NCBI GenBank assembly: GCA_003332265.1 | Contig: QPGA01000018.1 | Location: 1 to 33,310 of the forward strand | Direction: 5' to 3' | DNA: 33,310 bases | From: Candidatus Accumulibacter meliphilus | GTDB lineage: Bacteria; Pseudomonadota; Gammaproteobacteria; Burkholderiales; Rhodocyclaceae | Shown: positions 1 to 26,764 of the stretch, piece by piece | Layout of the letters: each line of letters opens with the position of its first letter | Numbering within the stretch: position 1 is the stretch's first letter | Translations under genes and position numbers: made by a program | The notes under the pieces: model-generated | What the model was told of the DNA's origin: nothing | The model's database searches: none | What the model saw: the letters and a program-made list of their open reading frames with translations, nothing else

Positions 1-3000
1 CCATCGAGCAGCAGGTAGGCCAGCGCGCTGCCATCGGGGTCGACGGCCAGTGCCTGGTAGCTGTAGGCCTGGCCAGCAGCAGCGACGCTCAGCGGCGTCG
101 AGGTGAAGCTCGGCCGCTGGTTCGCATAGGGCACGGCGTAGATGCCGTGGCCAATACCGATCTGTTGCGCCGCGCCGTTGCTGATCGAGACGCTGAAAGT
201 GGCCAGCGACCCACCGGCCTGCAGCTTGCCGTTCGGCAGTCTGCCGGAAAGGTCGATGTACCAGAGGCTGCCGGCGCCCTGCGGGGCGACGCCGCCGAGC
301 GGCCGGCCCTGGAAGTAGCGCGCCGGGTCGATGATCAGCGACGCCGGCAGGAGCAGGTCGTAGTCGGCTTCGTTGGTGACCGTGACGTCGTAGGAAACGA
401 TGCCGCTACCGCGGTCGCTGCGCACACGATCGAAGTCCAGGCGCACCACCGACGAGAAGTCCTGGGCGGCGACGAAGCTCGAGATGAAGGCCGAGCCGAG
501 CGCCATGCCAGCACTGCTGCCGACGCTGCCGAGGACGCGCAGGTCGTAGAGGTCGGCTTCCAGGTCGCTGACGGTCAGGGTGACGGTACGCGCCGGCGCG
601 TCGTAGCTGACGCCGCTGATCGTCGCCAGGCCGCCGTTCTGACGCACCACCTGGTAGTTCAGCGGATTGAGCACCGAAGCCGAAGCCGACGCCGGCCCGG
701 CAAACATGTCCTGGTCGAAAGTGATCGTCAGTTCGCTCAGCGGCAGCAACACCACCGCCCGGTTGGGCGGATTGGTGGCAATCACCTGCGGCGCGACGAT
801 CGGACTGATCACATCCACCTGCTGCGACTGGCCGAGCAGGATGCGGCCATCGCTGGTCGCCACCACCGCCTCGCCGCGCGAGCCGCCGCGAGCGATCTCG
901 ACGCTGTGTAGCGTCGTCAAGTCGACCATGGTCAGCGCCGAGCCGACTTCACCATGCGTCGAGTTGCTGGAAACAAAAAGCAGCCCCGCCAGATCCGTGC
1001 CGGCGCGACCGAACGCCAGCGAGTCGACTTCGCCGTCGAGACGCACCATGACCGTCGCGCGACCGCGCTTGTCGAAACTGACGACGTCGCCACGCGCCGG
1101 CCAGGAGGTCGCCCACAGCGTCTCGTCGGCAGCGAAAGCGAGGTCGTCGACGCGCAGGTCGCTGAAATGCCGGAAGTTGCCGCTGCTCGGGTCGAAAATC
1201 TCGATCCCGTCGCCCGACGACACGTAGATCTCGCCGGTCGACGGCTTGATCGCCAGCGCCTGCGTAATACCCGTGCCGAAGCGCGCCAGGATTTCGCCGC
1301 TGTCGGCGTCCAGGCGCAGCAAGGCGCCACCGCCGGTGGTCGCCCACAGCTGTCCCTGCTCGTCCAGCGCCAGGTCGAAGATCGGTTCGTCGAGTTCGAC
1401 GAAAGGCTGCAGCGCACGACCGCCATCGTGCGCGATGCGGTACAGCCAGCCACGGTTCGGACCGCCGCTGATGATTGCCGAACCGTCGGGCATCTCGATG
1501 ATCGCCAGCGGACCGATCGCCGCGTGGCTCTCGACGAAGTCGGTGGCGTAGGACTGCGCGGTGAACGGGCGCAGAGTCTCGGTGAACTCGGGCAGCTTGG
1601 CCAGCGGCGTCGCCGCTGGTATCTGCTGCTGTGCGGCGACGAACAAGGGATTGGTCGGCGGCAGCACTGGCGCCGGCGGCGGCGGCAGATCCTGCGAAGT
1701 CTGGCCGAAGCTCGGCAGACCACCGAGATTGGCGCCCGAACCGTCGTCCGGCGCCTGTACGCCACCCGGGGCCGCTTCGCGATTGCCGGCCAGATCCGTC
1801 GCCAGGGCGAGGAATTCGTAGCGGTGACCGGCTTCGCCGGAGTAGATGTCGAAGCTGTCGCTGGTCTGCCGCTTCCAGATCCGGAAATCGCCACCATCTT
1901 TGGCGACATAGACGGTGACGTGGGCGACGCCCGCGCCGCCGTCTTCGTCGACGGCCGTCCAGCGCACTTCGTAGTCGGAACCACCGGCCTGTACAGGCGT
2001 GGCGGTGAGCGTCGTCAGCGGCGCGCCGGTGTCGAGCGTCTGCACCAGCTCCTGCGTCTCCTGTGGTGCAATGGCGTTGAAGCGCACCACCGCCCGCGCC
2101 TTGACCAGCGTTCCCGAGGCCAGTCCGTCCTTCGCCTGGACCGTGTAGCCGAGCTGGCCGACGCCGCGACCGTCGGCGGCGTTGGGCAATAGCAGGCCGC
2201 GCGTGGCGTCCACCAGCACCTCGCCGGTCTCCGGGTCGATGGCCTGGAAAACCCAGGAAGCGGTATTCGTGCTCGGGTCGATCCCCGCCGAGACGCGCAG
2301 GATGAAGCCCTTTGCATTGCGCAGGTCGAAGTCGCCCTGGAACAGCGCGCGGCCGGTCGGAATGTGCACCGTCAGGTCGGCGAGCTTGATGTCGCCGAGG
2401 CGGAAGGTGGTCGGATCGAGCGCCGGATCGAGTTCGCTGACGACGCGGATTTCGGTCACCGAAGTCGCCGCCGCCGCCGGATTCTCGAACTTGATGGTAT
2501 ATGGCAGCGCCTGCCCGACGGGCAGGAACTGATCGACGCCATAACCCTGCGGGCCGGCGATCGACGCCAGCTGGCCGTCGCCGATCGCCTGCTCGTAGAG
2601 ACGCGAGAAATCGAGCGCGGTCAGCTCGTTGGATGCCGCGACCGAGGCGTAGTCGGGCAAGGCAATCGTTGCCGCCGACGCGCCATCCTTGTCGAAGCCG
2701 ACGTAGGGAACGAAGATATTGAAAGTCTGGAAGTAGGTCGGATGCGACAGACCGAGATCGTAGTCGTCGAATACCGGCAAGGCCGGGACAGGAATTTTGC
2801 CGACATCGCCACACTCGCTCTCGCGCGCCTCGAAGTGGTCGATGGCGGCCTTGGTACCCGGCTCGTCACCGTACCATTCCTTGATCTTGGCGAAGAAATC
2901 GGCGAGGTCGGCAGTGCTGCGGATTTGCTCGCCGGCCGGGCCGATCAGAATGCCGGTGGCCAGCGTGCTCATCAGGCTCATCACCTTGATGTCCTGGCGG

Positions 3001-6000
3001 ATCGGCGGCGCTTCGTCGACCGGACGCAGGATACCGACCTCTTCGAGCGCCGCCAGGTAGGCCTGGCTCCAGGTCGTGGCGTCGGCGGCGAGGACGCGCA
3101 GCGCGATCGCCGCGCGCTTTTCGGCGAGCGACGTGTCGTCGCTGCGCGTGTCTGCGATCTGCGCGTCGAGATCGGCGTCGGCAAGGATCGCCGCGCGCAA
3201 CTTCAGCGCTTCGGCGGTCTGGTCGGCGATGAACTCGTCACGGGTCATTGCCGTCGCCGCGCCGACGACGTTGAAGCGGTAGGGAATGAAGGGGATCACG
3301 CACTTGTCGGGCAAACCTTCTTCCGAGCCGGCCAGCAACCACAGTTCCCAGAACTCGGGCAGCACCGTGATCATCGCCTGCGGACCGCCGGCGAGCGCCT
3401 GAATCGGCTCCAGATCGGGGTACATTTCGTACAGACCGACGCGCAACGCGTCCCAGTTGAGCGTCGACAGCGCTTTCAGCAGCGGGTAGGTCTGGACATT
3501 GAACGTAGCACCGACGTAACCGCCAGCGATGACGTCATAGGCGTAGCCCGATGAGAGGATCTGGCCGTTGGTGTTGGTCGCCGAATCGAGGCTGGCCCAC
3601 GGCACGTCCTCGCCACCGCTCTCGGGCTGGCCACGCAGGTTGTTGTAATACTTGAGGAAAGGCAGATCGTAGACGAAGCCGTTGACGCCCATCTCGGGAA
3701 CACCGAAGCTGAAGCGCACGTAAGGCGTGTCGACGTTGGTCAGACTCTGCAGCGCGACGCCGTAGGTGCCGGTCTCGCCGGCAGCGAGGACGCGCGGACC
3801 GCCCAGACCAATGGTCACGTCGGTCTCCAGCGCGCGCTCGATCAGGAAACGGTAGGCGACCACCGCCTGCTGGCCATCCGGATTGATGACCTTGAGGTCG
3901 TAGAGGCCGAGCGGCGCGTCGCGGAAATCGAAGGTGGCGCGGATCCAGGTCGAATCGATGACCTCCCACTTGACCGGCTCGTACTCGGCGACTCCCGGGC
4001 GCACCAGTTTGAGGATCGCGTTGTCGGCGAACTTGGCGCCGCGCACGTCGATCGTCACCCAGCGGCTGTCGCCGCCCTGGTCGACCTGCACGCCGGTGAT
4101 CGCGAAAGGCACCACTTCGGCGAGCAGCTTGACCTGCGCGTTCTCTTTCGGTTCGCTGTGGCCACGAATCAGGACGTAGTAATCGCCCGGCCTGGTGAAG
4201 GGAATCACCGCCGTCTGATTGGCCTGCAGCGGATTCTCGTAGGTCGCGTCGTAGTTGAAGCCGTCGGGAACATCGCCGTAACGAACGAAGATCTCGTTGG
4301 CGGCGTCGTGGTCGACAGCGCTCAGGCTCAGCTTGAGCGTCTCGCCCTGGCCGACGGTGAGCTTGTAGACGCGGCTCTGGCCGGTGGACAAAGTGGTGCT
4401 CAAGGCGACGCCCAGATGCAGTTCGTCGACGGCGATGCTCAGCGCGTTGGCCGAGGTGCTGAAGTTGTTGGCTTCGCCCGCCGAGCGGTAAGGCCCTTCG
4501 AAAACTTCGTTGTAGATGTCGGGGCGGACGATGACGCGATACTGGCCGATCTTGATCGGCGGCACCAGCGCCTCCAGGCTCGCCGTGTAGCTGTCGTTCT
4601 CGGCGAGCACGCCACTGTGTGCGAGCTTGCCGAGCAGGCGGTCGCCGATGTCCCAGACGTTATCGTCGGAGAGATAGACGGCGTCGGTCCAGGCCGCCGA
4701 AGTGACATTGCTGCTGTGGTTGGCAACGGTCCACTCGACACGCAGCGTTTCGCCGGCCGCGCCGGTGCCGGCAAAAGTGATCGCGTCGACCTGGACGTCG
4801 GCCGGCGGCGGCACTTCGAAGATCGACGGTGGCGCGTTCGGCGTCGCGTTGTTGCGCTCGAAGCCACCTTCGAAAACCTTGCCGCGGCCACTTCCGCGCG
4901 CCGGATCGGTGACCACGAAGACGTAGTAGGCGCCGCTGATGTCGAGCGGCGCGCGCAGCGTCCTGCTGACCGTGTAACTGTCGCCCTGCGCCAGGCCGCC
5001 GCGGTGCTCGACGGTCAGCAGGTAGCGGTCGCTGTCGAGGTCGAGCAGCGGGTCGCGTGAGAGGTAGATCAGGTCGTCCCAGCGTTCCTGCTCGGGCAGC
5101 GTGTCGGCGCCACCGAGGTTGCCGACGGTATAGGTGACGGTGAACTCGTTGCCAACGGTGATGTGGTTCGGCGCGCTCACCGCAGTGACCTGCAGGTCGG
5201 CGAGCGGCGCCGCCGTCACCGGCAGTGGCGCAACGGTGATGTTGTTGCCCTCGCCGCGGAATTCCGGCACGGCGTCGTTGTTGGCGTCGATGCCGACGCC
5301 ACGATACTCGGGAACGATGTTGCTGTTCCACCACGCCAGCCGACTGTCGGCTTCGGAATCCGTGAACGCCAGCAGGCTGAAAGCGCCGGCGATGCCGTCG
5401 GGCAACTTGACGGTCGCCGTACCGGTATAGCTGTCGCCGGCGTTCAGTACGCCGTAATGGCGCGCCTCGGCGACCTGCAGGTCGAAGGTGTCGAGCGAAT
5501 CGTCTTTGGACAGGAACAGCCGGTCCCACCAGCTGATCTCGCGGGTGTCGCGGTTACCGATGTTGGTCACCGTGTAATTGACGGTGACCGTGCCGCCCGA
5601 CTGCCCGCCCAGCGGCGGCACCAGCAAGGAGGTGACTTTCAGATCGGGTTCGCGGTAGGTGACCGGGATGCTGCCGACGCCGCGGTTGTTGTCCTGCCCG
5701 CCGACGCCCTCGTACGCCGACGTCGGGTAGTAGTCGTCGCGATAATAGGCGTTGACGCCGGCGTCGGCCTCACCGGCCGGATAGCGCGAGTCGTAGCGGT
5801 TGGCGTCGGTAATCACGTAGATATAGAAGTTGCCGCCGATGCCGCGCGGCAGCGTGACCTCGGCGCTCTCGGTGTAGCTCGCTCCGGCCGCCAGACCGCC
5901 AGCATTATTGTGCACGAAAGTGCCGAGGCTGGTCGCCCGCTCGGGCAGGAAGACCGGGTCGGGCGACAGATAGACGCTGTCGACCCAGTAGCGCGTGCCC

Positions 6001-9000
6001 TCCCAGACCGCTGCGCCGAAGTTCTTGACGGTCCAGCTGATGGTCGTCTTCTCACCCGAGAAGTTCTCGCCCGGCGCAGCGATGGTGAGCACCTGCAGGT
6101 CGGCCGGACTCGGCACGACGCCGGTGTCCTGCACGCGGGTGTTGTTCTCTTCGTCGGCCTCTACAACGTCGTAGGGCTTTCCCTTGTAGGGGTTGTAGTC
6201 GGTGTAGGCGATCAGGTACTGGCCGCTAGCCGCCGGGTTGAGCGCAAAGCTGGTGCTCTGGGTATAGCTGGCGCCGGGCGCGGCACCGCCGTCGTGCGCC
6301 ACCGCGCCGAGGTACCACTGCTTGGCACCGGCGGCGTTGAGCGTCGGCTTGTCGGACAGCCAGAAGACGTCGTTCCAGCTACCGGCGGCTTCCCCGGCAC
6401 CGCTGTTGGCCACCGTCCAGGTGACGCTCAGCGCACTGCCGGTCGAGGCCAGCGGCGAAGCGGCGAGCGCGCTGATGCGCAGGTCCGGCGGCGGCGGCGC
6501 GAAGCCGCCGATGACGTCGATCGCCCGTGCCTTGTAGTTGTTGTTGTCGAGCTCGTTGATGTCGTCCGGGTTGAGGTTGCTGGCCAGCGTATCCTCGAGG
6601 ATGACGTCGTAGGAATCGCTCCAGACGGTGATGTAGTAAGTGCCCGAGGCGACGTGCGCCGGCAAGGCGACCTGCGTGACGACGTCGTAGCTGCTGCCCA
6701 CCGCCAGCGCGCCCTGGTGCTGCAGCGCGCCGAGCAGGATGGCGCTGTTGCCGCTGGCGTTCGGCCGCGTCTTGTCGCGCGACAGCCAGATGGTGTCGGT
6801 CCAGTTGGCTCCGGCAGTGGTGCCGCTGCCGCGGTTGGCGACCGTGTAGCGGACCTCGATGCTGGCCCCCTCGACGGCCTGCGCCGGTGCCACGACGCTG
6901 CCGGCGACCAGGTCGGCGAGCGGGTACGGCTCGACGAAGAGCGGTACGGCGGCGATATTGTTGGCGTCGTTGGGATACTCGTCGACCGAACCGCTGCCGT
7001 CGGCCTGAACGATCAGAAACACGTCGCCACGGAAACGGATCGGGATCTCCAGGCTGCCGCTGTCGGTCGCGTACTGCTCGCCGGGGTTGAGCGCCGCACC
7101 ATTGTCGTAAGAGCCGATCAGCAGGTCGTCGCCGCTGAGCTTGTTGTCGAGCGACAGGTAGACGCGGTCTTTCCAGCGCGGCGTCGTCGTCGGCACGCTG
7201 CCCTGGTTGATGATCGAAAAACGCAACGACACCGTCGCGCCGGCCGCGGCCCGCGCCGGCGCAACGACGTTGGCCACCTGCAGGTCCGAGCGCGGCAACA
7301 GCGCGACCTGCAGCACCTGGTCGTCGGCAGCGCTGTTGTTGGCGGCAGCGCTGCCGTACTCGTACACCTGCCGGCTGGAATTGGTCAGCACGACCAGCTG
7401 ATAAACACCTTCGGTGCGCGCCGGCAGGCGGAAGCGCTCGGTGCGAGTGTAGGAAATGCCGGCTTCGAGGCCGCCGGCGTCGTAGGTGAAAGTGCCGAGG
7501 TAGATGCCGGGGTCGTTGGGCTGACCGACCTTGCGCATTGAAACGACATCGGTCCACGCGCCATCGGCCTTGGCCAGTCCGTTGTTGGTGACCGTCCAGC
7601 GAACGTCGATGGTGTCGCCTTCGGAGGCCGTCTCCGGCGTCACGATATCGGTCACCTGCAGGTCGGGCGAGTCCGACAGGACGATGTCCACCAGCCCGGC
7701 GACGCGGCTGTTGTTGTCGACGTAGATGAATTCTTCGGGGCCAGCGGTGCGTACGCTCACGAAGTAGCTGCCGGAGAGCCCGTTGGGAATCGTCACTTCC
7801 TGCGTGCGGCTGTAGCTGTCGCCGGCGGCGAGCACGCCGAGGTGCGTGAAGCTGCCAAGCACGGCAACTGGCTTGCCCGCAGCGTCGGCGAGGGTGACTA
7901 CGTCGTTCCAGCCGGGAATATCGGTCGGACCAATGCCGTTGTTGGTCACCTGCCAGGAAACGGTCATGCTCTGCCCCGAACGGGCGGTCGCCGGTACGCT
8001 CGCCTGGCTGACGATCAGGTCGGCGTAGGGAATGCGCACGACATCGAAGATGCGCGCCGCCTCGGCGGCATTGTCGGCCTCGAGACCGTTCTCGAAGACC
8101 TGGTTGCCGGCGTCGCTGCGCACGAAGAAATGGTAGCGCCCCTGGAAGTAGGCCGGCAGCAGGAAAGTCTCGCTGCGGGTGTAGCTCTCACCGACAGCGA
8201 GCGCGCCGAGGTGCTCGTAGCTGGCAAGGACGCGGTCATCGTCGCTGACGACGGCGTCGGTGGACACCAGCAGGGTATCGGTCCACTGCGTCGTTTGGCC
8301 GACACCGGTGCCGTCGTTGCCGACCGTCCAGCTGACGGTGATCTGTGCCGGGTCGCCGACAACCACCTCGGGTGCCGGCGCATAGGGCACGCTGGCTTCG
8401 GCACTGACGGCGCTGACGACCAGGTTGGCGTAAGGCGCCAGCGCCGCGGCGAAAGGCGTCGAACCGACGTTGTTGTTTTCGGCACCGAGCTCGTGCACCT
8501 GCCCGAGCGCGTCGCCGACCAATAGGAGGAAGTAGTCGCCGCTGGCCGCCAGCGGCAAATTGACCTGCAGTTGCGCGTCGTAGCTGGCGCCGGTAGCGAG
8601 TGGCCCGCCATGCGCCAGTTCGCCGAGCAGTGTGTCGTCGGCACCAAGCGTCGCATCGCGCGACAGGTAGAGGCGATCGGTCCACGCGCCGAAAGCGTCG
8701 CTGCTGCCGGCGTTGCGCATCTGCCAGGCGACGACGATGGCCTCGCTGGACAGCGCGCCGGCCGGCGCGCTCACCAACACCGGCCGCAGATCCGGATGGA
8801 CGACGCTCAGCGTCGCCGTTGAAACACTGCTGTTGTTGCCCTCCTGGCTGCCTTCGAACACCGTATCGCCAACGTCGCTGCTGACGACAATGAAATAATC
8901 GCCGTCGGCGACGTCGGGCAGCGTGATCTCGGCGCTCGCCGTGTAGCTGGCCAGCGCCAACAGTTCGCCGCTGTGCGGCACGGTCGCCAGCAGACGCGCG

Positions 9001-15000: not shown

Positions 15001-18000
15001 ACGCCCTCGTCAGCCTTGATGTAAGCCACCAGCCCGGCCGCGTTGCCGACCAGCGGGGCATTCATCGAGGCCAGGATCTCGGCGTCGCTACGCGCCACGT
15101 TCCAGACCCGGATGTCGTCCATGCTGCCCACCAGGCTGGCGTAGCTGCTGCCAGGCTCCAGCGCGCTACCCAGGTACAGGGGATTGCTGTTGCTGCTGGC
15201 CAAATTCTTGCGGATATTGGTGCTGCTCTTCTGCAACACGCCATCCACCAGGATGCGTACGGTTCCGGCAGTGCGGTCCATGACCGCCGCGATGTGATGC
15301 CACTGCCCGGTGGTGATCAGGCCGCTGCCGGTCTGGGTGGACTGGTTGCTGCCGTCACCGGTATCGAAAGCGACGCTACCGTTGGAGTGCAGCCAGAGGC
15401 TATAGCTACGCTCGCCAGGGTTCTCCGGGTTGCCCTTGTAGAAAAGCGTGGTCCAGGTATTGTCGAAGCGGTCCACCTTGACCCAGGTCTCCAGGGTCAG
15501 GGTATCGGTCAGGTCAAGAGCCGCAGCATGGTCGATCTGGGCCGACTGCAGACCGTTGAAGTGCAGCGCGCCGGCAAACTGGCCATTGGCCCAGGGCGCG
15601 GGCATGCCGTACACGCCGTCCAGCGTGATGGCCTGAGTCAGGTCCCGGACCTGCTGCACCCGGAAACTGAAGCTGCTGCTACCGCTGCCACCATCCCGGC
15701 GGCCCTCGACGAGCAGCGTGTAGACGCCGGCAAACGGCAGGGTCTGCAAGCGCACGTCGTCCGAGGGCAGGTAGTTGGGTCCCCACAGGTTGCGACCCCA
15801 GGGGTCCAGCAGGCGCCAGTAAGGATAGCCGCCGCTGGCCGAGACCTCGTCGAAGTACAGGCGCTCGCCCGCCTCGGCGGTGAAGCGGTAGGCGGTGGTG
15901 GCCGTGGCCGGCGTATGCTGACCGTTGACCACGGTATTGAAGTCCAGCTCCAGGGCGCCGGCGAGGTCGAGCAGACGGAAGCCATAGTCGCCGCTGGTGT
16001 CGCCGACCCCGTCGACACGCAGCGTGTAGTCGCCGGCTACCAGGTCGAAGACGCTCAGTCCGTTCTGCGAATCGCTGCTCTGGAAGGGACGATCGGAAAC
16101 CAGCGTGCCACGCGGGCCGCTCAGGGTCCAGCGCAGATTGTTGTTGTCGGTCAGCGAATCAAAATACAGGCGCGTCGTATCGGCAAGCGTGAAGCGGTAG
16201 TAATCCTGCTGACCAAAATCGATGCGCCCGGCGACGACGCCGGGCACGCTCGACCAGGGATGAACGATCTGTCCCGCATTGCCCCGGCCGCTGGCGTCGG
16301 CCAGCGTCGTGCCGCTGCTCTCGTCGGCTTTCAGGTACATGCGCAGCCCGGCCTCGTCGCCGACCAGCGTGCGGTCCTTGTTGTCGGCGATCTGCTGTGC
16401 GCTGCGCACGCTGTTCCACAGGCGGATATCGTCCACCGCGCCCTGGAACACCGGGTAATTCTCCAGGCTGCTGCCGATCAGCAGCGGATTGGTATTGGAA
16501 CTCGCGGCGGTCTTGGCGAGAGCGCCGCTGGCGGCCTCGACGCCGTCCAGGTAGATTTTCATCACCCCGCTCGCACTGTCGCGATCGAGCACCACGGCAA
16601 CGTGGTACCACTGACCGGTGACCACGCTGCCGGCGGCGGTGTTGATGTTGTTGTTGGCATTGTTGCCGGTCGACAGGTGCAGGTAACCCGCGGAATTGAG
16701 CCACAGGGTGTAGGTCCGCTGGTTGCTGTTGCCATTGCCCTTGTAGAAAAGCGGCTGCCAGGTGCTGGCGTAGGCGTCGACCTTGAACCAGGCTTCAAGC
16801 GTCAGCAAGCCGGTCAGATCAATGTCGCCATTACTGGCCACCTGTGCGTAGCGCAGGCCGTTGACGTTCAGGGCGCCACCGAGCTGACCATCGGTACTGA
16901 ACTGGTCGAGGCCGTGGCTGACGCCGGGGACGATGTCGACAATGTCGTCGGTGATCTCCAGCAGCTTGAAACTGTAGTCGATCGTGGCGCTGTATTGCGT
17001 CTGCCAGATGCGGCCCTCGACGATCAGCGTGTAGGTGCCGCTTTCACCGAGCGTGAAAATGTCGACATCGTTCAGGTAGGTGGGGCCGAAGACCTGCCGA
17101 CCGTAGGGATCGAACAGGCGCCAGGTCAGGCGGTCGGCACTGCTGCTCAGCTTCTGGCGGTCGAGGTAGTAGCGCGTACCGGCCGTGGCGTCGAAGCGGT
17201 AAACGTCGGTTTCGTTGGCCGGGTCGAGCTGGCCGCTGACCACGCTGTTGCTGGTAAACGCGGTCGCCGCGGCAAGGTCGAGGAGCCGGAAGCTGAAATC
17301 GCCGGTCTGATCGCCCTGCGGGTCCAGGGTCAGGGTGTAGTCACCGGCGACGAGATCGAGCAGTGGACTGGTGGCGCCCAACTCGTTCGATTCGGAGCCG
17401 TAGAAACGGCGATTGCTGATCTCGGTGCCGCGTGGCCCGGTCAGCGTCCAGTAGATATCAGGATTGGCGTTGTTCGGCGTCAGGCCGTCGAAGAGCAATT
17501 GCCGCGCGTCGCTGAGCGTGAAACGGTAGCTGGCGCGCTGGCCGGGCGTGCCGAAGCTGCCGCTCACCGCCTGGCCCAAGCTAAGGCTGTCGCTGATATC
17601 GACGACCTTGTGGATGTTGAAGCCGTAGGCGTTGGCCGCCGCCGTATTTCCGACCCGGCCTTCGACCAGCAGGTAATAGGTGCCCGACAGGGTGAAGGCG
17701 CTCATCTCCTGGTCTTCCGGCCAGACGTAACCGCCCCAGACCTGCCTGCCCTGCGGATCGATCAGGCGGTAGGTGATGTTGTAGTAGTTGTCATAGCTGA
17801 TGCGGTCGAAGTAGTAACGTTCGCCAGCAAGGGCGTCGAACTGATAGAAATCGGTGACGCGAGCACTGCTCAGGCTGTCGCTGAGCGCCGTGCCGGGGAA
17901 CAACGCGGCGGCTTCACCGGCCACGTCCACCAGCCGGAAGCTGTAATCGCCGGTGGTATCACCACTGCCGTCGAGAGTCAGCGTGTAAGCGCCGGCCGCC

Positions 18001-21000
18001 AGCCGCAGCAGTGGGTTGCTCTGGCCCAGTTCGTAGGAATCGGAGTTCTGCAGATTGCGACTCAGGACGTAGCCGTCCGGACCGCGCAAGGTCCAGGCGA
18101 TGTTGCTGTTGCTCAGGCTGTCGAAATAGAGCAGCGTCTCGTCGGCCAGCGAGAAGCTGTAGCTGTCCTGCTGTCCGGCGTGGTCGATATTGCCGTTGAC
18201 GGGTTCGCCGATGCTCAGCGCACGCGCCGGATCATCGGCGACTGGCTGGATGTTGAAGCTGTAGTCGAAACTGGCGACCGATCCCGTGCTCCAGATCCGC
18301 CCCTCGATCAGCAGCGTGTAGACACCGGTAAGCGCCAGCGTACTGACGTCGACGTCGTCGTAGAAATTCGCCGGCCCCCAGACCTGGCGACCGTAGGGGT
18401 CGAGCAAGCGCCAGCTGACCCAGCCCGAGTTGGCCGGACTCAACGTCTGGCGGTCGAAGAACAGCCGGTCGCCGGCGTTGGCGGTGAAGCGGTAAACGTC
18501 GGTTTCGTTGCTCGGATCGAGGCTCGCGGTGAGCGGCGTGCCGGGCGTAACCGCCACGCCGTCGGCGAGGTTCAGGACGCGGAAACTATAGTTGCCGGTG
18601 GTGTTGCCATTGCCCCAGACACGCAGCTGATAGCTTCCGGCCAGCGCCACGTCGATCACCGGGTTGCCGTTGCCGAACTCGTAGGAGTCCGAGTAATAGG
18701 TGCTGCGATCGGCGATCTCGGTACCGCGTGGGCCGAGCAGCGACCAGTGAAACTCGCCACTGTTGCTGGGCGCAAAGCTGTCGAAGTAGAGTCGCGTCGG
18801 ACCGGCGACGGCAAAGACGTAGTCGTCCACCTCGCCCGCGGCGCTCAGCGTGCCGCTGACCGCGGCGCCCAGCGTGATGGCCGTTCCGGTCAGCGCGGCG
18901 ACCGGGGTATTGCCCGCGAGGGCAATCTTGAAACTGTAATCGATAGCGCCGGTTTCCCAGCTGCGGCCTTCGACCAGCAGGGTGTAGGTGCCGCCAAGGC
19001 GCAGGTGGGTACTCGCCCGGTCCGCAAAAGGCTCCGGCGCGAAAACCTGGAAACCGGTCTCGTCAAGCAAGCGCCAATACGGGCTGCCGCCGCTGAGCGC
19101 AAGGCGGTTGAAGACCACCTGGTCACCTGCGCTGGCGGTGAACTTGTGGATGGCGGTCATTCCGCCCGGGATGAGCGTGCCGCTGACGTCGCTGTCGTTA
19201 GCGACGACACTGCTCGCAGTGGCCAGGTTCAGCAGACGGAAAGCGTAGGCGCCAAGGCTATCGAGATTGCCGTCGACGGTCAGGGTATAGGCCCCGGCGG
19301 CCAGGCTCAGCAGCGGATTGCCGCCGAATTCGGCCGCATCCGAGTACACGAAGCTGCGCCCGGCGACCTCGCTGCCGCGTGGCCCGACCAGGCTCCAGTT
19401 GAAATCGTTATCGTAAGTCAGCGAGTCGAAGAGCAACTGCGCCGGCGCCGCCAGCGTGAAAGTGTAGGCCTGGCGCTGACCAGGATGGTCGAGAGTGCCG
19501 TCGACGCGAGAATCCAGCGCCAGCGACGCGCTGCCATCGACGACGTGCTGCAGTTTGAACTGGTAGTCGCTGGAACGGGTGTTGAAGATGCGGCCTTCCA
19601 GCGCCAGAACATAATCGCCCGCGTCGGCCGCGGCGAACACATCGACGTCACTCGTGAAAGCCTGCGGCCCGTAGACCAGGCCACCTTTGGGATCGAAAAT
19701 GCGCAGCGAGAAATTGTCGCCTGACAGTCCCAGGCTATCGACGAAGAAACGCTCGCCGGCAAGCGCAGCGAACTTGTAAAGCCGCGTCTCCGTGGCCGGT
19801 GCGCTGCCCGGTGTACCACCGCTGGCACCGGCATCGCCGAGCGTGCCGGTGACCGTCGTGTCCAACGCGACTGCCTCCGCCGCGGCCAGGTCAAGCACGC
19901 GAAACGCGTAATCCCCAACGCGGTCGCCCTCGCCATCGACGCTCAGCGTGTAGCTGCCGGCGCGCAGCAGGATGCTGGTATTGCCCGCCAGCTCGTAGGA
20001 GTCCGAATACTGGAATCGCCGGTCGGCAAGCACCGTCCCGTTGGGACCGCTGAGCGACCACAGCAGGCGATCGTCGGCGGTCAGCGAGTCGAAGACGACA
20101 CGGGTGTCCGCAGCCAGCGTGAAACTGTGGATGTCGCGCTGCCCGGCCTGCGCGATGCGCCCGGCGACCAGCGCACCCAGGGTCATCGGCTGCGGCACGG
20201 CTTCGTCGAGCAGGGCGACGTTGAAGCTGTAACTCGCGCTGTCCGTGGTGTAGGCACGCCCCTCGATGAGCAGCGTGTAGCTGCCGTCCACGGTGAGCGT
20301 TCTCTCGCCGAGGTCATTGTTCATGGACGTACGATCGACCACCGTGCGACCGTAGGGATCGAGCAGCCGCCAGTAGATGTCGCCGGTATTCGCCAAGCGG
20401 TCAATGAAGAAGCGCTGACCAGCGGCGACACTGAAACGGTAGGCGTCGGTCTTGTTGCCTGGATCGAGCTGTGCGTCGACCGTCGTTCCCGGTATCAACT
20501 CCTGCGCCTGCGCGATATCGATCAAGCGGAAACTGTAGGCGCCGATGTTGTCGGCGACGCCATCGACGCTCAAGGTGTAGTCGCCCGCCCCCAGATCGAG
20601 GGCGACGTCGCCGCTCCGCTCGTAGGAATCCGAAGCGTTGAAGCCACGCTCGCTGACCACCGTGCCGCGCGGTCCTTCGAGCGACCAGCGCATGCTGGCA
20701 TCGTTGGTCAGCGAATCGAACACCACGCGAACCGTTTCGTTCAGCGTGAAACCGTAGCGATCGGTCTCGCCGGCGACGTCGATCGAGCCATCGATCTGGG
20801 TGACCGGTATGCTCGGCGCGCCGTCGAGCAGGATGCGCGGTTCGAGCGCCTCGAAGTTCAGGCGCCCGGCGCTGGTCGGCAGTTCGCCGGCCGCTGGCCT
20901 GAAGGCCTTGGCCAGAAACCCGCTCAGCCACGCCAAACCACGACCTCGATGACTACGCTGTGCTTTCCTCGCGGCCGACCCGCAGGTCGGCGACGGCAAA

Positions 21001-21026
21001 ATCTCCGGACGCGCTTTGCTATCCAT
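1..21026 (-). CDS. Giant LEPR-XLL multi-domain surface protein (partial, C-terminus outside window)
   Basis: A single minus-strand frame stays open from the ATG at 21026 to the window edge, at least 7008 codons. Residues 61-69 read LEPRILLDG, the LEPR-XLL motif found near the N-terminus of giant exported proteins. Approximate order: 24 PPC-like units in A/B pairs (residues 75-3300), interrupted by LamG-like domains (1370-1583 and 1805-2021) and an L-type-lectin-like domain (2436-2666); 17 CARDB-like units (3310-5530); a further PPC-like and a TIG-like segment (5530-5726); a unique part-helical region (to about 6150); a DUF-like and a fibronectin-like segment; a beta-propeller-like stretch (6478-6740); a Big_5-type Ig domain; and an Ig-like end. 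No catalytic domain was recognised. The family and lectin-type modules suggest an exported adhesin or matrix protein, probably type I secreted; the C-terminal signal is not visible. The 21026 ATG was chosen because it lies 60 codons before LEPR and the upstream in-frame stop is at about 21121. Confidence 0.95.
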   Translation of the reverse strand, partial: MDSKARPEILPSPTCGSAARKAQRSHRGRGLAWLSGFLAKAFRPAAGELPTSAGRLNFEALEPRILLDGAPSIPVTQIDGSIDVAGETDRYGFTLNETVRVVFDSLTNDASMRWSLEGPRGTVVSERGFNASDSYERSGDVALDLGAGDYTLSVDGVADNIGAYSFRLIDIAQAQELIPGTTVDAQLDPGNKTDAYRFSVAAGQRFFIDRLANTGDIYWRLLDPYGRTVVDRTSMNNDLGERTLTVDGSYTLLIEGRAYTTDSASYSFNVALLDEAVPQPMTLGALVAGRIAQAGQRDIHSFTLAADTRVVFDSLTADDRLLWSLSGPNGTVLADRRFQYSDSYELAGNTSILLRAGSYTLSVDGEGDRVGDYAFRVLDLAAAEAVALDTTVTGTLGDAGASGGTPGSAPATETRLYKFAALAGERFFVDSLGLSGDNFSLRIFDPKGGLVYGPQAFTSDVDVFAAADAGDYVLALEGRIFNTRSSDYQFKLQHVVDGSASLALDSRVDGTLDHPGQRQAYTFTLAAPAQLLFDSLTYDNDFNWSLVGPRGSEVAGRSFVYSDAAEFGGNPLLSLAAGAYTLTVDGNLDSLGAYAFRLLNLATASSVVANDSDVSGTLIPGGMTAIHKFTASAGDQVVFNRLALSGGSPYWRLLDETGFQVFAPEPFADRASTHLRLGGTYTLLVEGRSWETGAIDYSFKIALAGNTPVAALTGTAITLGAAVSGTLSAAGEVDDYVFAVAGPTRLYFDSFAPSNSGEFHWSLLGPRGTEIADRSTYYSDSYEFGNGNPVIDVALAGSYQLRVWGNGNTTGNYSFRVLNLADGVAVTPGTPLTASLDPSNETDVYRFTANAGDRLFFDRQTLSPANSGWVSWRLLDPYGRQVWGPANFYDDVDVSTLALTGVYTLLIEGRIWSTGSVASFDYSFNIQPVADDPARALSIGEPVNGNIDHAGQQDSYSFSLADETLLYFDSLSNSNIAWTLRGPDGYVLSRNLQNSDSYELGQSNPLLRLAAGAYTLTLDGSGDTTGDYSFRLVDVAGEAAALFPGTALSDSLSSARVTDFYQFDALAGERYYFDRISYDNYYNITYRLIDPQGRQVWGGYVWPEDQEMSAFTLSGTYYLLVEGRVGNTAAANAYGFNIHKVVDISDSLSLGQAVSGSFGTPGQRASYRFTLSDARQLLFDGLTPNNANPDIYWTLTGPRGTEISNRRFYGSESNELGATSPLLDLVAGDYTLTLDPQGDQTGDFSFRLLDLAAATAFTSNSVVSGQLDPANETDVYRFDATAGTRYYLDRQKLSSSADRLTWRLFDPYGRQVFGPTYLNDVDIFTLGESGTYTLIVEGRIWQTQYSATIDYSFKLLEITDDIVDIVPGVSHGLDQFSTDGQLGGALNVNGLRYAQVASNGDIDLTGLLTLEAWFKVDAYASTWQPLFYKGNGNSNQRTYTLWLNSAGYLHLSTGNNANNNINTAAGSVVTGQWYHVAVVLDRDSASGVMKIYLDGVEAASGALAKTAASSNTNPLLIGSSLENYPVFQGAVDDIRLWNSVRSAQQIADNKDRTLVGDEAGLRMYLKADESSGTTLADASGRGNAGQIVHPWSSVPGVVAGRIDFGQQDYYRFTLADTTRLYFDSLTDNNNLRWTLSGPRGTLVSDRPFQSSDSQNGLSVFDLVAGDYTLRVDGVGDTSGDYGFRLLDLAGALELDFNTVVNGQHTPATATTAYRFTAEAGERLYFDEVSASGGYPYWRLLDPWGRNLWGPNYLPSDDVRLQTLPFAGVYTLLVEGRRDGGSGSSSFSFRVQQVRDLTQAITLDGVYGMPAPWANGQFAGALHFNGLQSAQIDHAAALDLTDTLTLETWVKVDRFDNTWTTLFYKGNPENPGERSYSLWLHSNGSVAFDTGDGSNQSTQTGSGLITTGQWHHIAAVMDRTAGTVRILVDGVLQKSSTNIRKNLASSNSNPLYLGSALEPGSSYASLVGSMDDIRVWNVARSDAEILASMNAPLVGNAAGLVAYIKADEGVGNSAADATGHGHVVSLSEATAPVIVGAIEHVGQLVNYTFTLGEASTRVYFDAMTDSSNVRWSLTGPRGTLVSGRHFQQSDSVDALSLFDLPAGDYQLSIAGYQDYTGEFRFRLLDLAAASIFAPGTPVSGSLTPANQTDAYQFTANAGERYFFERISEVAGDIYWRLLDPWGRTVWGASNFNADAGLFTLAYDGIYTLLMEGRRNGAGNASYSFNVQPVADDVANLTLGAAVSGSIEHAAQQDYYNFRLEADSALYFDSLTNSTDFTWTLSGPRGPVVSARQFADSDSNDYKSKPVLSLEAGDYTLIVDGKDATTGTYGFRLVDLAAATLIDVGDTVTDTLSPGNATHLFRFAASARDRFNFELLSESANSPYWRLISPDHGVVFGPSATDDVVSTMPFTGTYYLLLEGRVGESNAVDYSFRIADTALPNSGGHSSQDFDADGLPWVAASFSKSAPVVIPGGPSGDFLRLLPGSVTGYNTIAFNNAGVGVIPATVSVDFDFRIGKVSNQGDGIGFAWLNADVWGNSGPAPQFGEEVNLAGSFGVGFDPVNNGELSDNHVSLHFNGNKLAEFNLPGFRLDSGDFQHARIVIVAVAGGSKVSVYLTPSAGSEVAVVEDYFISAMQAYDGRMAFGARNGGWRADNDLDNIRVAVVAGTAEPLPVLTLGSVAVSGTLSASGEIDRYRFSVTDATRTYFDSLTNNSSLRWSLSGPRGSVVTDRSFTASDAYQGLSLLDLTAGDYLLSVFGSTGAYSFKLMDMDQGEVLTPDTPTSGTLSPGNETDIYRFDALAGEQFYFDRVSFSGGYYTDWRLIDPFGRTLWGPTHMYSNDVDLTTLPYSGTYYLLLEGRYHEDTASNYTINVRKIDNSVSTPIVVGDRVDAELSKPGEVDSFSFEIGGSESKRVYFDVLTNTSQLSWTLSGPRGSLVSGRLFSATDAANGRSIMDLAPGSYTLIVDGSGDATGAYAFRLLDLAAGTQIVPGTPLLERTLTPGNETDVYWFDAVAGERFYFDRVSFSGGYYTDWQLLDPAGNTLWGPTHMYSNDVDVTTLPRSGRYTLLVEGRYHEDAATSTYTINVQPVLDHVTPMTLDSEVAGSIDSVGQRGLHTFTLSETKQVYVDVLTNNGNFSWSLSGPRGSEVANRSFSSTDGVHGLSLLELLPGDYTLSIDASGEATGAYALRLLDLAAAQLITPGTPVSSQLNPANSTDIFRFNAAAGDRFYFDRVSFSGAYYTEWRLLDPWGKTVWGPTHFYANDVDVTTLEFDGLYTLLVEGRYHESGISNYTLNVSPSPVAQKIILSGLGTVPGADLKVENLVLTPVGGGLTAGGEVLVSWEVSNTGNLPADAPWKDRILVRNMDRGGELVVNLLVDYSDLGAAATDPLAVGARRARQVTVSLPPGNSGAGNLRFEVAADVTNVVAEPGVAELNNAASVNALAASTPYPDLQVDSVVVTPSSGWAAGSSVTVSWRVNNSGSVGVDDAWNDRLRVRNLSTGAILLNASSRYLPALGGELAAGGSIDRRFTFNWPAGAVGSGQFEFLVSTDDDGEIFESNASDSAETNNAATVVVASAPDLLVQRLRVDALTATAGDSVTVFWDDRNDGLIATPASWQDRLIVRNLSSGETLLDVALPYNIALIGNAALAPDASVARSYTFQLPEGLRGSGQIEVEVRADQNAAGQGSLVEYTAAGDGGESNNSARLAFTAAARPYADLAVGSLSAPSSGRGGETITLEWTVLNQGSIASGVQWSDRVVLSRDDLIGNADDVTLASVGHYGVLAPGASYQQSRQLLVPERLDGAFRLAVVADALGELSEPDTRANNSAMVMIDLSTPHADLQVEVVAAPASARSGEATPVSWRVRNAGDRPTDVTQWQDRIYLSSDAALDAGDTLLAQILHSGGLGAGESYSGQSNVFLPFGITGDYHILVKTDAASQVFESIFEDNNVTASHAAVQVLAPTLADLSVSEIVVPVPGAPGQTRIVTWTVANSGSGAARGSWSDRVYLSADGSLGGARLLATVPHSGELLALASYTASAEITLPDVADGDYFIVVSSDVGDTVFEGSQEGNNSSVSTATLSVVHPDLRPVLVSAPAGALSSEAIVVAWQMRNAGSSDAFGAWTDRLYLSRDATLGADDTLLGELAHGGPLATGASYDAQLQVNLPLAASGDYFLLLVGDALGQVHELGAENNNVGSTPFAAALAPYANLVVSAVSAEASVPYAPAPEVVVGDPAQITVSWTVGNDGTGVGQTTQWTDTLLVSTDAVVSDDDRVLASYEHLGALAVGESYTRSETFLLPAYFQGRYHFFVRSDAGNQVFENGLEADNAAEAARIFDVVRIPYADLIVSQASVPATARSGQSMTVSWQVTNNGIGPTDIPGWNDVVTLADAAGKPVAVLGSFTHLGVLAAGDSYSRTQEVTIPNGLSGSYFVSVRTAGPEEFIYVDNNSRVAGLVDIVLSDSPDLQVTDIVTPETASEGDTIDVRWTVTNNGLAKADGAWTDVVSMRKVGQPNDPGIYLGTFTYDAGGLEAGISYTRTERFRLPARTEGVYQLVVLTNSSRQVYEYGSAAANNSAADDQVLQVALLPRSDLQVANVVAPARAAAGATVSLRFSIINQGSVPTTTPRWKDRVYLSLDNKLSGDDLLIGSYDNGAALNPGEQYATDSGSLEIPIRFRGDVFLIVQADGSGSVDEYPNDANNIAAVPLFVEPYPLADLVAGSVVAPAQAVEGASIEVRYTVANRGSGTTAGANWTDTIWLSRDKTRPNASGNSAILLGALQHQGALAVGSSYDVVTQVALPAHVASGTYYITVWSDSYDVILEDTLASNLNPDDINELDNNNYKARAIDVIGGFAPPPPDLRISALAASPLASTGSALSVTWTVANSGAGEAAGSWNDVFWLSDKPTLNAAGAKQWYLGAVAHDGGAAPGASYTQSTSFALNPAASGQYLIAYTDYNPYKGKPYDVVEADEENNTRVQDTGVVPSPADLQVLTIAAPGENFSGEKTTISWTVKNFGAAVWEGTRYWVDSVYLSPDPVFLPERATSLGTFVHNNAGGLAAGASYTESAEVTLPRGIGGNFYIYVITDANRYDSRYPAGEADAGVNAYYRDDYYPTSAYEGVGGQDNNRGVGSIPVTYREPDLKVTSLLVPPLGGQSGGTVTVNYTVTNIGNRDTREISWWDRLFLSKDDSLDTFDLQVAEARHYGVLNAGDSYTGTATVKLPDGIAGAFSLLAFTDSEADSRLAWWNSNIVPEYRGVGIDANNDAVPEFRGEGNNITVAPLPVTAAPLADLQVTAVSAPNHITVGNEFTVTYTVGNLGGADTLPEQERWDDLIYLSRDPLLDLDSDRYLLTVEHRGGLAQGDSYTVSRTLRAPLDISGAYYVFVVTDPARGSGRGKVFEGGFERNNATPNAPPSIFEVPPPADVQVDAITFAGTGAAGETLRVEWTVANHSSNVTSAAWTDAVYLSDDNVWDIGDRLLGKLAHSGVLAENDSYTASLEALVPPIKIGQYRVIVRPDIYNEVFEGPYRSAGEANNFSTSANALSIAVDELHLGVALSTTLSTGQSRVYKLTVGQGETLKLSLSAVDHDAANEIFVRYGDVPDGFNYDATYENPLQANQTAVIPFTRPGDYYVLIRGHSEPKENAQVKLLAEVVPFAITGVQVDQGGDSRWVTIDVRGAKFADNAILKLVRPGVAEYEPVKWEVIDSTWIRATFDFRDAPLGLYDLKVINPDGQQAVVAYRFLIERALETDVTIGLGGPRVLAAGETGTYGVALQSLTNVDTPYVRFSFGVPEMGVNGFVYDLPFLKYYNNLRGQPESGGEDVPWASLDSATNTNGQILSSGYAYDVIAGGYVGATFNVQTYPLLKALSTLNWDALRVGLYEMYPDLEPIQALAGGPQAMITVLPEFWELWLLAGSEEGLPDKCVIPFIPYRFNVVGAATAMTRDEFIADQTAEALKLRAAILADADLDAQIADTRSDDTSLAEKRAAIALRVLAADATTWSQAYLAALEEVGILRPVDEAPPIRQDIKVMSLMSTLATGILIGPAGEQIRSTADLADFFAKIKEWYGDEPGTKAAIDHFEARESECGDVGKIPVPALPVFDDYDLGLSHPTYFQTFNIFVPYVGFDKDGASAATIALPDYASVAASNELTALDFSRLYEQAIGDGQLASIAGPQGYGVDQFLPVGQALPYTIKFENPAAAATSVTEIRVVSELDPALDPTTFRLGDIKLADLTVHIPTGRALFQGDFDLRNAKGFILRVSAGIDPSTNTASWVFQAIDPETGEVLVDATRGLLLPNAADGRGVGQLGYTVQAKDGLASGTLVKARAVVRFNAIAPQETQELVQTLDTGAPLTTLTATPVQAGGSDYEVRWTAVDEDGGAGVAHVTVYVAKDGGDFRIWKRQTSDSFDIYSGEAGHRYEFLALATDLAGNREAAPGGVQAPDDGSGANLGGLPSFGQTSQDLPPPPAPVLPPTNPLFVAAQQQIPAATPLAKLPEFTETLRPFTAQSYATDFVESHAAIGPLAIIEMPDGSAIISGGPNRGWLYRIAHDGGRALQPFVELDEPIFDLALDEQGQLWATTGGGALLRLDADSGEILARFGTGITQALAIKPSTGEIYVSSGDGIEIFDPSSGNFRHFSDLRVDDLAFAADETLWATSWPARGDVVSFDKRGRATVMVRLDGEVDSLAFGRAGTDLAGLLFVSSNSTHGEVGSALTMVDLTTLHSVEIARGGSRGEAVVATSDGRILLGQSQQVDVISPIVAPQVIATNPPNRAVVLLPLSELTITFDQDMFAGPASASASVLNPLNYQVVRQNGGLATISGVSYDAPARTVTLTVSDLEADLYDLRVLGSVGSSAGMALGSAFISSFVAAQDFSSVVRLDFDRVRSDRGSGIVSYDVTVTNEADYDLLLPASLIIDPARYFQGRPLGGVAPQGAGSLWYIDLSGRLPNGKLQAGGSLATFSVSISNGAAQQIGIGHGIYAVPYANQRPSFTSTPLSVAAAGQAYSYQALAVDPDGSALAYLLLD
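4440..11100 (-). repeat. CARDB-like repeat array, 17 units, within the giant gene
   Basis: Seventeen consecutive units of about 110-140 residues each open with a motif like (A/P)DLQV, followed about 20 residues later by VSWTV-N, then W-DR-YLS, then L-G-SY and a closing E-NN. This is the CARDB (cell-adhesion-related domain found in bacteria) pattern. Units start near 11093, 10690, 10310, 9900, 9530, 9155, 8795, 8435, 8025, 7665, 7300, 6925, 6490, 6105, 5650, 5210 and 4815. The array would form a long rigid stalk. Unit sequences differ clearly, so misassembly by repeat collapse is not obvious. Confidence 0.85.
11110..20815 (-). repeat. PPC-like A/B repeat array, 12 pairs, within the giant gene
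   Basis: The protein alternates two related beta-sandwich units. Type A has a core like LYFDSLT, then W-SLSGPRG, then AGDYTLTVDG and FRLLDLA. Type B has NETDVYRF, then AGERFYFDR, then WRLLDPYGR-VWGP, then YTLLVEGR. Twelve pairs can be read: six before the first LamG domain, one between the two LamG domains, two before the lectin-like domain and three after it. They resemble bacterial pre-peptidase C-terminal (PPC) domains. Individual pairs diverge at the nucleotide level, so this is an old duplication rather than a recent tandem expansion; the last three pairs are the most alike, sharing a GPTH-Y-NDVD segment. Confidence 0.85.
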
Positions 21027-21061
21027 CAGCAGTACCACCGTAGTGCGATCTCGGTATTCAT
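21026..21061 (-). CDS. 11-residue leader ORF overlapping the giant gene start
   Basis: An ATG at 21061 follows an ideal ribosome site (GGAGGAG at 21069-21075) with seven bases between. It opens a frame of 11 codons ending in TGA at 21028-21026. The last base of this stop is the first base of the giant gene's ATG (TGATG). The giant gene's own ATG has no comparable ribosome site, so ribosomes finishing the leader could re-initiate there. Alternatives are a programmed frameshift or a base error fusing the two starts. No function is assigned to the peptide itself. Confidence 0.5.
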   Translation of the reverse strand: MNTEIALRWYC

Positions 21062-21068
21062 TGTTCCA

Positions 21069-21075
21069 CTCCTCC
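21069..21075 (-). promoter_or_regulatory. Strong Shine-Dalgarno site for the leader ORF / giant gene
   Basis: The minus strand reads GGAGGAG. It is seven bases from the leader ATG at 21061 but more than 40 bases from the giant gene ATG at 21026. It therefore favours the leader start and implies coupled translation of the giant frame. Confidence 0.6.
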
Positions 21076-21168
21076 AGAGCAGCTGGCACGAACACGTCTC
21101 TCGCAGCAGGAAGCAAGACTGCTTATCGCGAAAGACAGGTTTTAGAACTATAAGCAATTCCTATACCT

Positions 21169-21358: not shown

Positions 21359-22132
21359 TTACGGCGAGCCCTTCCCTGCCCCCTTGAACAGGCAGCCGAG
21401 CAGCAAGGCAATCAGGGCGAAGGAAAGACCGCTGGCCAGCAGGAACACCAGCACGGCGAGCGGAGCGGCGAGCAGCCAGGGTAGCGCCGTATCGTGGTTG
21501 TTGGCACTCGAGAAAACGCGATCAAAGGCGAGCGCTGCCGCCTGGTAGCCGAGAGGCAGCGCGCAACAGGCAGCGACCACGCCTTGCAGCAGCGGACGAG
21601 CAAGCTCGGACGCCGCTTCACCAGTCGACCGATCCTTGCGGGTCGCACGCCACCCGCGCACGAGGCGCACGCTGAGCACGCCCAGACCGACAAGCAGAAG
21701 GCCGCCTACCGCCAACAGCAGCGGCAAAAGCCAGCGCTCGGCCCGCCCGACCCACGCCAGATCGCGAAGCGGGGCAGGCGACGCGGCTGCAGCAGTTGAT
21801 GTTGGCGCTGGCGTCACGACGGTGGGCGCTGCAACCGCTTGCGCTGCAGGCATTCGCGCCGGGGACAGCTGCCCGCTGCGGGTATCGGTCCGCCCAGCTT
21901 CATCGCAACGCTCGCTACCCGGCGGCCGGATCGTTCGCGCCGACGGCGGGCAAGCTCCGTCAACCATGAACTGCACACCGTTCAGCTCACAGATCGCCGC
22001 GTTGCGCAGGCGGCATTCCTGCTCGGGAGTCGGCACGTCGGCACGGCCAACGCCGACAACCAGCCAGGACAAGGCGACCGCCAGCGAGAGGCTGGCAAGC
22101 GGCCCGGCGAGACGATCGGTATTGACGTTCAT
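21359..22132 (-). CDS. Exported/membrane protein of unknown function, upstream of the giant gene
   Basis: This 257-residue protein is not one I recognise. Residues about 10-32 form a signal-peptide-like hydrophobic stretch ending at GRA-DVP. A short cysteine-containing segment follows (CRLRNAAICELNG, then GACPP and RCDE), then an Ala/Pro/Thr-rich linker. The C-terminal half contains three hydrophobic segments (about residues 133-155, 187-203 and 218-245). The ATG at 22132 is preceded by AGGTGAAG at suitable distance; a GTG at 22141 is an alternative. It lies 333 bp upstream of the giant gene on the same strand, so a link to export or anchoring of that protein is possible. That link is inferred from position alone. 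Confidence 0.75.
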   Translation of the reverse strand: MNVNTDRLAGPLASLSLAVALSWLVVGVGRADVPTPEQECRLRNAAICELNGVQFMVDGACPPSARTIRPPGSERCDEAGRTDTRSGQLSPARMPAAQAVAAPTVVTPAPTSTAAAASPAPLRDLAWVGRAERWLLPLLLAVGGLLLVGLGVLSVRLVRGWRATRKDRSTGEAASELARPLLQGVVAACCALPLGYQAAALAFDRVFSSANNHDTALPWLLAAPLAVLVFLLASGLSFALIALLLGCLFKGAGKGSP

Positions 22133-26752: not shown

Positions 26753-26764
26753 GGGGCCAAGCAC

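Follow-up and report, generated by a model that had tools for sequence, protein, structure and literature searches.

How could a protein of more than 7,000 residues leave the cell that makes it? The question is raised by a stretch of 33,310 nucleotides from Candidatus Accumulibacter meliphilus (GenBank assembly GCA_003332265.1, contig QPGA01000018.1, positions 1 to 33,310), referred to here as the window. Its left 21 kb carries, on the minus strand, a gene for a giant protein with the LEPR-XLL motif near its N-terminus. The window makes up the first 33,310 bases of contig C30, which has 85,026 bases in all and belongs to an assembly (G000) of 4.70 Mb, 120 contigs and 91% completeness. Because LEPR-XLL genes in many bacteria adjoin an operon encoding a SecA-like ATPase, a fusion of an M50 protease to a HlyD-type adaptor, and further HlyD adaptors, we consider LEPR-XLL giants to be the likely cargo of this machine, with a probability of roughly 70%; it would export them in one step, guided by a leader.

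The original prediction had described a minus-strand frame open over the left 21 kb to the window edge and more than 7000 codons long. This was borne out: no stop occurs in 3..21116, and orthologues agree. The frame has 7,038 codons from a TTG at 21116 and 7,008 from an ATG at 21026; the ATG is the likely start, because the MDSKARP sequence at this position is kept in three orthologues. Stop trinucleotides make up 2.4% of the window, and on a naive estimate a run of 7,008 codons without one would arise by chance with a probability of about 5e-75. The G+C content at third codon positions was 0.79-0.89 in all 15 blocks of the frame. All 7,008 codons were matched in two orthologues. That in genome G353 is 96% identical both in protein and in DNA across the whole 21 kb, and its contig likewise breaks off inside the gene. 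That in G371 is 84% identical in protein and complete, with a single frame of 12,254 codons and the conserved start. The ratio of nonsynonymous to synonymous substitution rates (dN/dS) was 0.187 against G353 and 0.254 against G371, and 0.411 in the highest 1,000-codon block. Five other species of the genus carry stretches 87-98% identical inside frames of 11,266-12,263 codons, and the last 1,105 window residues were matched in 17 of 28 genomes of the genus, the own genome included. These results demonstrate that the giant gene is real and under purifying selection. Since the G371 orthologue has 12,254 codons, about 57% of the gene, its N-terminal part, falls within the window, and the full protein would have about 12,250 residues, judging from these relatives. 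The description of the gene as one of the largest bacterial gene types also held. A set of 300 genomes of the order gave 85 LEPR-XLL matches. The frame that holds the match has at least 5,000 codons in 49 cases (for one of them, interrupted by an N gap, the length was entered by hand) and at least 10,000 in 21.

The exporter operon of the own genome was found on contig C58. This contig starts with a coding end homologous to that of a giant on contig C55, followed by a PEP-CTERM protein, a small DUF3467-like protein, GAF-HlyD, PqqD-M50-HlyD, a SecA-like protein and HlyD. GAF-HlyD, M50-HlyD, SecA_DEAD and HlyD together are the parts of a secondary SecA_DEAD locus related to type I secretion systems (T1SS). 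The M50-HlyD fusion is an intramembrane protease joined to an adaptor, and its closest named relatives, 76-80% identical, are in five Accumulibacter genomes. In G371 (contig C3), genes for DUF3467-like, GAF-HlyD, M50-HlyD, SecA-like and HlyD proteins end about 1.1 kb before the orthologue of the window gene, on the same strand, and a second LEPR giant comes after the orthologue. In G359 (contig C6), the orthologue is directly followed by DUF3467-like, GAF-HlyD and M50-HlyD genes and then by another giant; beyond it lie a DUF3467-like gene, an M50 fragment, SecA-like and HlyD, so that the cluster is split by that giant. The small DUF3467 protein before GAF-HlyD, scored with Pfam on two homologues only, reached for example 71.7 bits against a cut-off of 25 (L113:8513-8890). 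The second giant of G371 is split over two overlapping frames at 81350-81801 of C3 (L258), a break in the gene or in the assembly. A TolC/HlyB/HlyD T1SS had been suggested as something to look for near the giant gene. HlyD-type adaptors are present. The energy source linked to them, however, is a second SecA encoded next to the M50-HlyD fusion, and the HlyB model TIGR01846 has no match over its cut-off in the own genome, nor among the ten window frames scanned.

The relationship between LEPR-XLL giants and the SecA-accompanied fusions (clade A) was examined across the 300 genomes, with a threshold of E below 1e-100 for the fusion. The fusion was found in 32 genomes and LEPR-XLL in 32: 28 had both, 4 the fusion only, 4 LEPR only and 264 neither (Fisher p 6e-31, a value that overstates the association because the genomes are related, the 32 LEPR genomes belonging to 20 genera). 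In three of the LEPR-only genomes (G093, G238 and G249) a fusion of another clade (clade B) follows the LEPR gene, and in the fourth (G094) the LEPR match is a 23-aa frame and probably spurious. An M50 fusion was found no more than 7.2 kb away from 20 of the 85 LEPR genes (17 fusions of clade A, 3 of clade B), and gene and fusion shared the strand in 20 of 20. We also analysed 80 named loci chosen by the fusion alone, which reach up to 10 kb from it and many of which end at contig ends. On the strand of the fusion they carry GAF-HlyD (78), SecA-like (75), HlyD3 (53) and DUF3467-like (22) genes, and they span Alpha-, Beta- and Gammaproteobacteria, Desulfobacterota, Nitrospirota, Omnitrophota, Rokubacteria and others. 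Under a neutral rule for shadow frames, 36 of the 80 loci had a frame of at least 1,500 aa near the operon on the same strand, against 11 with one on the opposite strand. An earlier count of 51 of 99 loci against 5 was discarded, as its shadow rule leaned to the same strand and it took in 19 loci, most of them chosen because a LEPR gene was close by; on these 19 the neutral rule gave 9 against 0. LEPR-XLL passed its cut-off in 41 of 46 named operon genomes and in none of 14 control genomes. These results show that LEPR-XLL giants and the clade-A fusion co-occur and are co-oriented across genomes.

What could the exporter recognise on the giant? The features of the window gene, with domains scored against Pfam and NCBIfam cut-offs, are as follows:

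3..21026, minus strand: 5' part of the giant LEPR-XLL gene (7,008 codons), which continues past the contig start (no stop; orthologues)
20862..21026, minus strand: basic N-terminal tail before the motif, without a signal-peptide-like hydrophobic core (Kyte-Doolittle)
20799..20861, minus strand: LEPR-XLL motif FEALEPRILLDG, proposed leader or recognition motif (NF012209, 25.6 bits, cut-off 17; residues 56-75)
19599..19787, minus strand: PPC domain (PF04151, 26.9 bits, cut-off 25.9)
16386..16850, minus strand: Laminin_G_3 (ConA-like lectin) domain in two stretches (PF13385, 187.7 bits for the piece, cut-off 27.6)
15105..15452, minus strand: second LamG domain (PF02210, 55.3 bits for the piece)
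4488..11096, minus strand: 17 tandem CARDB units (gene-specific hidden Markov model, domain E <= 1e-3)
972..1376, minus strand: possible beta-propeller, below cut-off (SGL, 18.0 bits, cut-off 26.3)
492..797, minus strand: Big_5 Ig-like domain (PF13205, 25.3 bits, cut-off 23.6)

The LEPR-XLL motif, the LamG or lectin inserts, the Ig domain and the 17 CARDB units had all been predicted, and all were recovered; the domains are of the adhesin type. The CARDB model was built from 12 Pfam CARDB hits of the giant gene itself, and it gave zero matches in 10 shuffled proteins. The predicted PPC-like pairs stood in part, with one PPC above the cut-off and a second below it (20.4 against 25.9 bits), and the propeller failed its cut-off; DUF7619 was also below (25.6 against 27). 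Neither residues 1-7008 nor the final 714 residues of the G371 orthologue matched an RTX repeat family. The C-terminus of that orthologue gave no PEP-CTERM hit, and NF038126 scored 46.6 bits in the window protein, below its cut-off of 50. The prediction had further placed all long opposite-strand frames in one register, which applied to 11 of the 12 plus-strand frames of at least 150 aa listed; 667..1227 differs.

Among 27 distinct LEPR-LL N-termini, E at position -2 is invariant, and LL is followed by S/A/D and then A/G. The tails before the motif, with starts set by rule, have a median length of 54 residues and are net positive in 25 of 27. A 10-residue stretch with a hydropathy of 2.0 occurs in none of them, and once among 15 clade-B N-termini; in the first 120 residues of the window giant, the highest 15-residue Kyte-Doolittle mean is 0.81. 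A usual signal peptide is therefore unlikely. A common signal at the other end of the protein was also considered. Frames that end within 3 kb upstream of GAF-HlyD often had an IDW...NPN..L tail, and 15 of 51 such frames (non-giant and shadow frames included) fell into one BLAST cluster. As the orthologues of the window gene end differently, no universal C-terminal signal is claimed.

The M50-HlyD fusion has the HExxH motif in 22 of 22 full-length sequences (19 of clade A, 3 of clade B), a set that leaves out a short clade-B row of 203 aa (L050:8583-9191, 48 bits, no HExxH). The PqqD family (PF05402, cut-off 23.4) passed in 3 of 4 fusions scanned, with 27.0 (C58), 30.5 and 31.8 bits; the Nitrospiraceae fusion, at 22.1 bits, was below. 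The predicted structure of one Accumulibacter fusion had a mean predicted local distance difference test (pLDDT) score of 86.9, and its top PDB matches were MacA, MexA and other adaptors. Since adaptors topped the search with the whole fusion, the N-terminal domain was searched alone. Its model (pLDDT 87.6) has three strands followed by helices. No PDB match of this domain reached E 0.001, but RRE-leader complexes were among the top ones, and its stand-alone leader-binding matches had target TM-scores of 0.66-0.72. Both sequence match and fold support assigning the domain to the PqqD/RRE group.

As for the SecA-like protein, 15 aligned sequences of 616-677 residues have GxGKT in all and a DEAD-type box in 14, with DDAD in the remaining one (L122). 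NMAGRGTD and GRxARQGDPG-type motifs are kept in most, and L122 deviates most. The usual SecA frames of the same order have 907-984 aa. One SecA over the TIGR00963 cut-off was present in each of 18 genomes, and the 16 of these with a clade-A operon had 22 further SecAs, 21 beside the fusion and one on another contig (G164:C32). The two clade-B-only genomes had the usual SecA alone and no second one. In a tree of 26 SecA-like and 18 usual SecA proteins, the groups separated with support of 100/100. Against the Gram-positive SecA2 models TIGR04397, TIGR03714, TIGR04221 and NF012136, the C58 protein was below every cut-off; SecY2 was outside this search.

Clade B forms a SecA-free branch. A LEPR or DUF4347 giant lies upstream on the same strand in 13 of 23 stretches, 10 within the stretch itself and three (G093, G249 and C36) known from genome scans, several stretches being cut short. 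A SecA-like gene was found in 0 of these 23 stretches, several of them cut short. The own genome has such a locus (G000:C36:27834-47107; L049, L050), in which a DUF4347 giant of 4,299 codons accompanies TolC-type, HlyD and M50-HlyD genes, without SecA. A TIR-NACHT-FGE-sulfatase fusion, possibly defence-related, was also seen on this contig (L050; C36:49541-52501). The DUF4347 giants (LEPRxLFDGA/MFDGA) resemble the LEPR-XLL giants in having LEPR near the N-terminus and an adjacent M50-HlyD fusion. They differ in that the motif has mostly F-D-G/A where LEPR-XLL has L, then S/A/D and A/G, and in having no SecA-like gene in the stretches examined. As the LEPR motif and the M50-HlyD fusion are constant in both branches, recognition by the fusion is proposed.

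We propose the following route from these sequence comparisons. Synthesised in the cytosol, the giant would lack a usual Sec signal peptide, and the PqqD/RRE domain of the fusion would recognise its basic N-terminal tail with FExLEPRxLL(S/A/D)(A/G). The M50 membrane domain might conduct the giant, cut it, or both. The SecA-like ATPase would drive its passage, and the HlyD adaptors together with a TolC-type channel would bring it out in one step. At the surface, the LamG, CARDB, Ig and cadherin-like domains could provide cohesion or matrix binding in flocs. Reading of the leader by the PqqD/RRE domain, perhaps with cutting by M50, is the bolder part of this proposal. Tentatively, at somewhat less than even odds, the components may represent a distinct leader-guided route free of ATP-binding cassette (ABC) transporters, with an RRE on a protease-adaptor fusion, a dedicated SecA paralogue and a HlyD/TolC conduit, and with the SecA-free LEPRxLFDGA/MFDGA (DUF4347) systems as a sister branch. 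In phosphorus-removing sludge, Accumulibacter builds the flocs and granules. Given this habit, the selected giant gene is a candidate matrix component, and a role in cell-cell or matrix contact, as originally predicted, is plausible.

Several observations weigh against the giants being the cargo of this operon. In the own genome the operon and the window gene are on separate contigs (C58 and C30). Sixty-five of the 85 LEPR genes have no fusion within 7.2 kb, in a set where many genomes hold several such genes and many contigs are broken. A LEPR match is absent from 4 of the 32 fusion genomes (G052, G114, G153 and G181) and from 5 of the 46 named operon genomes, and the relatedness of the genomes makes the Fisher p overstate the association. 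Some operon loci have a long frame on the opposite strand only, TolC is inconstant in SecA-type loci, and the recurring small DUF3467-like gene could be another client. The three best PDB matches of the fusion's N-terminal domain were GdmN and methyltransferase structures (E 3.5e-3 to 5.4e-3) and not RREs; RRE-leader complexes of lasso-peptide, sactipeptide and heterocyclase leader-binding proteins came next, with a best E of 7.4e-3.

Could these observations be explained otherwise? T1SS is the known route of giant RTX adhesins, and the giant might be exported by an ordinary ABC-type T1SS encoded elsewhere, with the SecA/M50/HlyD operon a neighbour that has another job. At E<=1e-100, 280 of the 300 genomes have HlyB-family matches, G000 having 3, and a Vibrio LEPR-XLL giant with C-terminal RTX and serralysin domains appears in a passage of PMC10868602. 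However, only 7 of the 32 genomes with LEPR-XLL have HlyB over its cut-off, compared with 24 of the 268 without (p 0.03), against a clade-A fusion in 28 of 32, and the absence of a TIGR01846 match over the cut-off in G000 and of RTX families from the scanned parts of the giant makes this explanation very unlikely. In another alternative, the M50 fusion would release or process the giant at the membrane, and the SecA-like and HlyD proteins would export, for example, a small peptide resembling ribosomally synthesized and post-translationally modified peptides (RiPPs). PqqD and M50 do resemble RiPP parts, as the daptide intramembrane protease model NF041824 gave 149.9 and 157.6 bits, below its cut-off of 300. 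A small DUF3467-like gene also recurs, on the same strand in 22 of 80 named loci. Among frames of at least 120 aa, no other non-shadow gene recurs widely, a weak argument since smaller genes were outside the search. Long same-strand frames, present in 36 of 80 loci, and LEPR-XLL, over its cut-off in 41 of 46 genomes, also speak against the peptide alternative, which we regard as unlikely. The giant gene might also be an artefact of assembly or gene calling, or decaying, as the contig end falls inside it. The 87-98% identical stretches inside long frames of five other species and a dN/dS of 0.19-0.25 across 7,008 codons refute this, unless all six assemblies share one error. Export of LEPR-XLL giants by the SecA/M50-HlyD/HlyD operon is the preferred explanation.

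Extension of the contig leftward, as the original prediction had advised, gave nothing in the own genome, but the frame is complete from start to stop in G371. The first 28 bases of C30 occur in no other G000 contig (one mismatch allowed). The own genome has a complete paralogue of 12,886 residues on C55, collinear with residues 3325-7008 at 41%; in a search aimed at the C30 extension, a 3,000-aa piece of it beyond the collinear part gave no long match elsewhere. As C30 could not be extended within G000, the 3' end of the giant was read from orthologues alone. A third LEPR gene, containing a run of N, is on C74. A continuation of C30 into the right end of C74, reached by elimination, was dropped because the orthologues end in different sequence. 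Contigs C74 and C58 (C74 right end and C58 left end; L031, L036) both begin with the same 164-base giant coding end, with which the other end of C74 has an overlap of 67 bases; this is a branch in the assembly. Between two giant-gene pieces on C74 lies an AAA/BTAD-type regulator-like protein of 1,122 aa (L048; C74:17931-21296).

The remaining features of the window lie upstream of the giant:

21359..22141, minus strand: 260-aa predicted membrane protein (translation with hydrophobic stretches)
24937-26157: tyrosine integrase with Arm domain
28576-31491: Toprim/DUF927 protein
32465-32926: DUF772 transposase piece

The membrane protein has no Pfam or NCBIfam hit, and window positions 21381-22064 share 70% identity with 24984-24322 of G371:C3, a stretch that separates HlyD3 from the giant. 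The part at 24937-33310 is likely an integrated mobile element, and G371 has the exporter operon at the corresponding side of the giant. Short tandem repeats were seen at 22176-22201 (8-base units), 29686-29725 (19), 31683-31716 (9) and 33017-33081 (23). Directly past the window, C30 has 3,138 bases of N (33311-36448), and further along a modular polyketide synthase (L052; C30:46050-53309).

As a gene, the giant adds one more member to a known type, and the novelty lies in the leader model and in the pairing with the exporter. Kamneva, Poudel and Ward (2015; PMC4452313) described the secondary SecA_DEAD/T1SS-related locus and called its role completely unknown. In the passages concerned, the locus comprises GAF-HlyD, Peptidase_M50-HlyD, a SecA_DEAD protein and HlyD, with no ABC transporter; a secretion role is suggested, with the M50 protein as inner-membrane pore and the cargo unknown. 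The operon of Methylobacterium extorquens AM1 is among those named there. The present operon shares all four parts. The terms LEPR and giant have 0 occurrences in the main text of PMC4452313 as available, and no link of the locus to LEPR-XLL proteins or giants was found among the matches listed in a literature search whose coverage excluded subscription journals and preprints. The present work adds a putative cargo, the LEPR-XLL giants, as well as the PqqD/RRE domain and a parallel branch that lacks SecA. A Gram-negative second-SecA locus of secretion type, in print since 2015 without a cargo, thereby gains a testable substrate, and proteins of 5,000-14,000 residues gain a plausible exit route.

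Among known systems, the NF012209 LEPR-XLL proteins have the same N-terminal motif and are very large and repetitive; the passages found on them name no exporter. The giant adhesins of RTX, Bap and SiiE type exported by T1SS share the giant multidomain build and HlyD-type adaptors. Unlike them, the window giant has no RTX match in the parts scanned, and a SecA-like protein stands in the place of HlyB. RiPP systems with RRE/PqqD domains and daptide M50 proteases are alike in having a PqqD-type domain and an intramembrane HExxH protease, here in one chain, whereas the proposed cargo of the present system has thousands of residues and its protease is fused to a HlyD adaptor.
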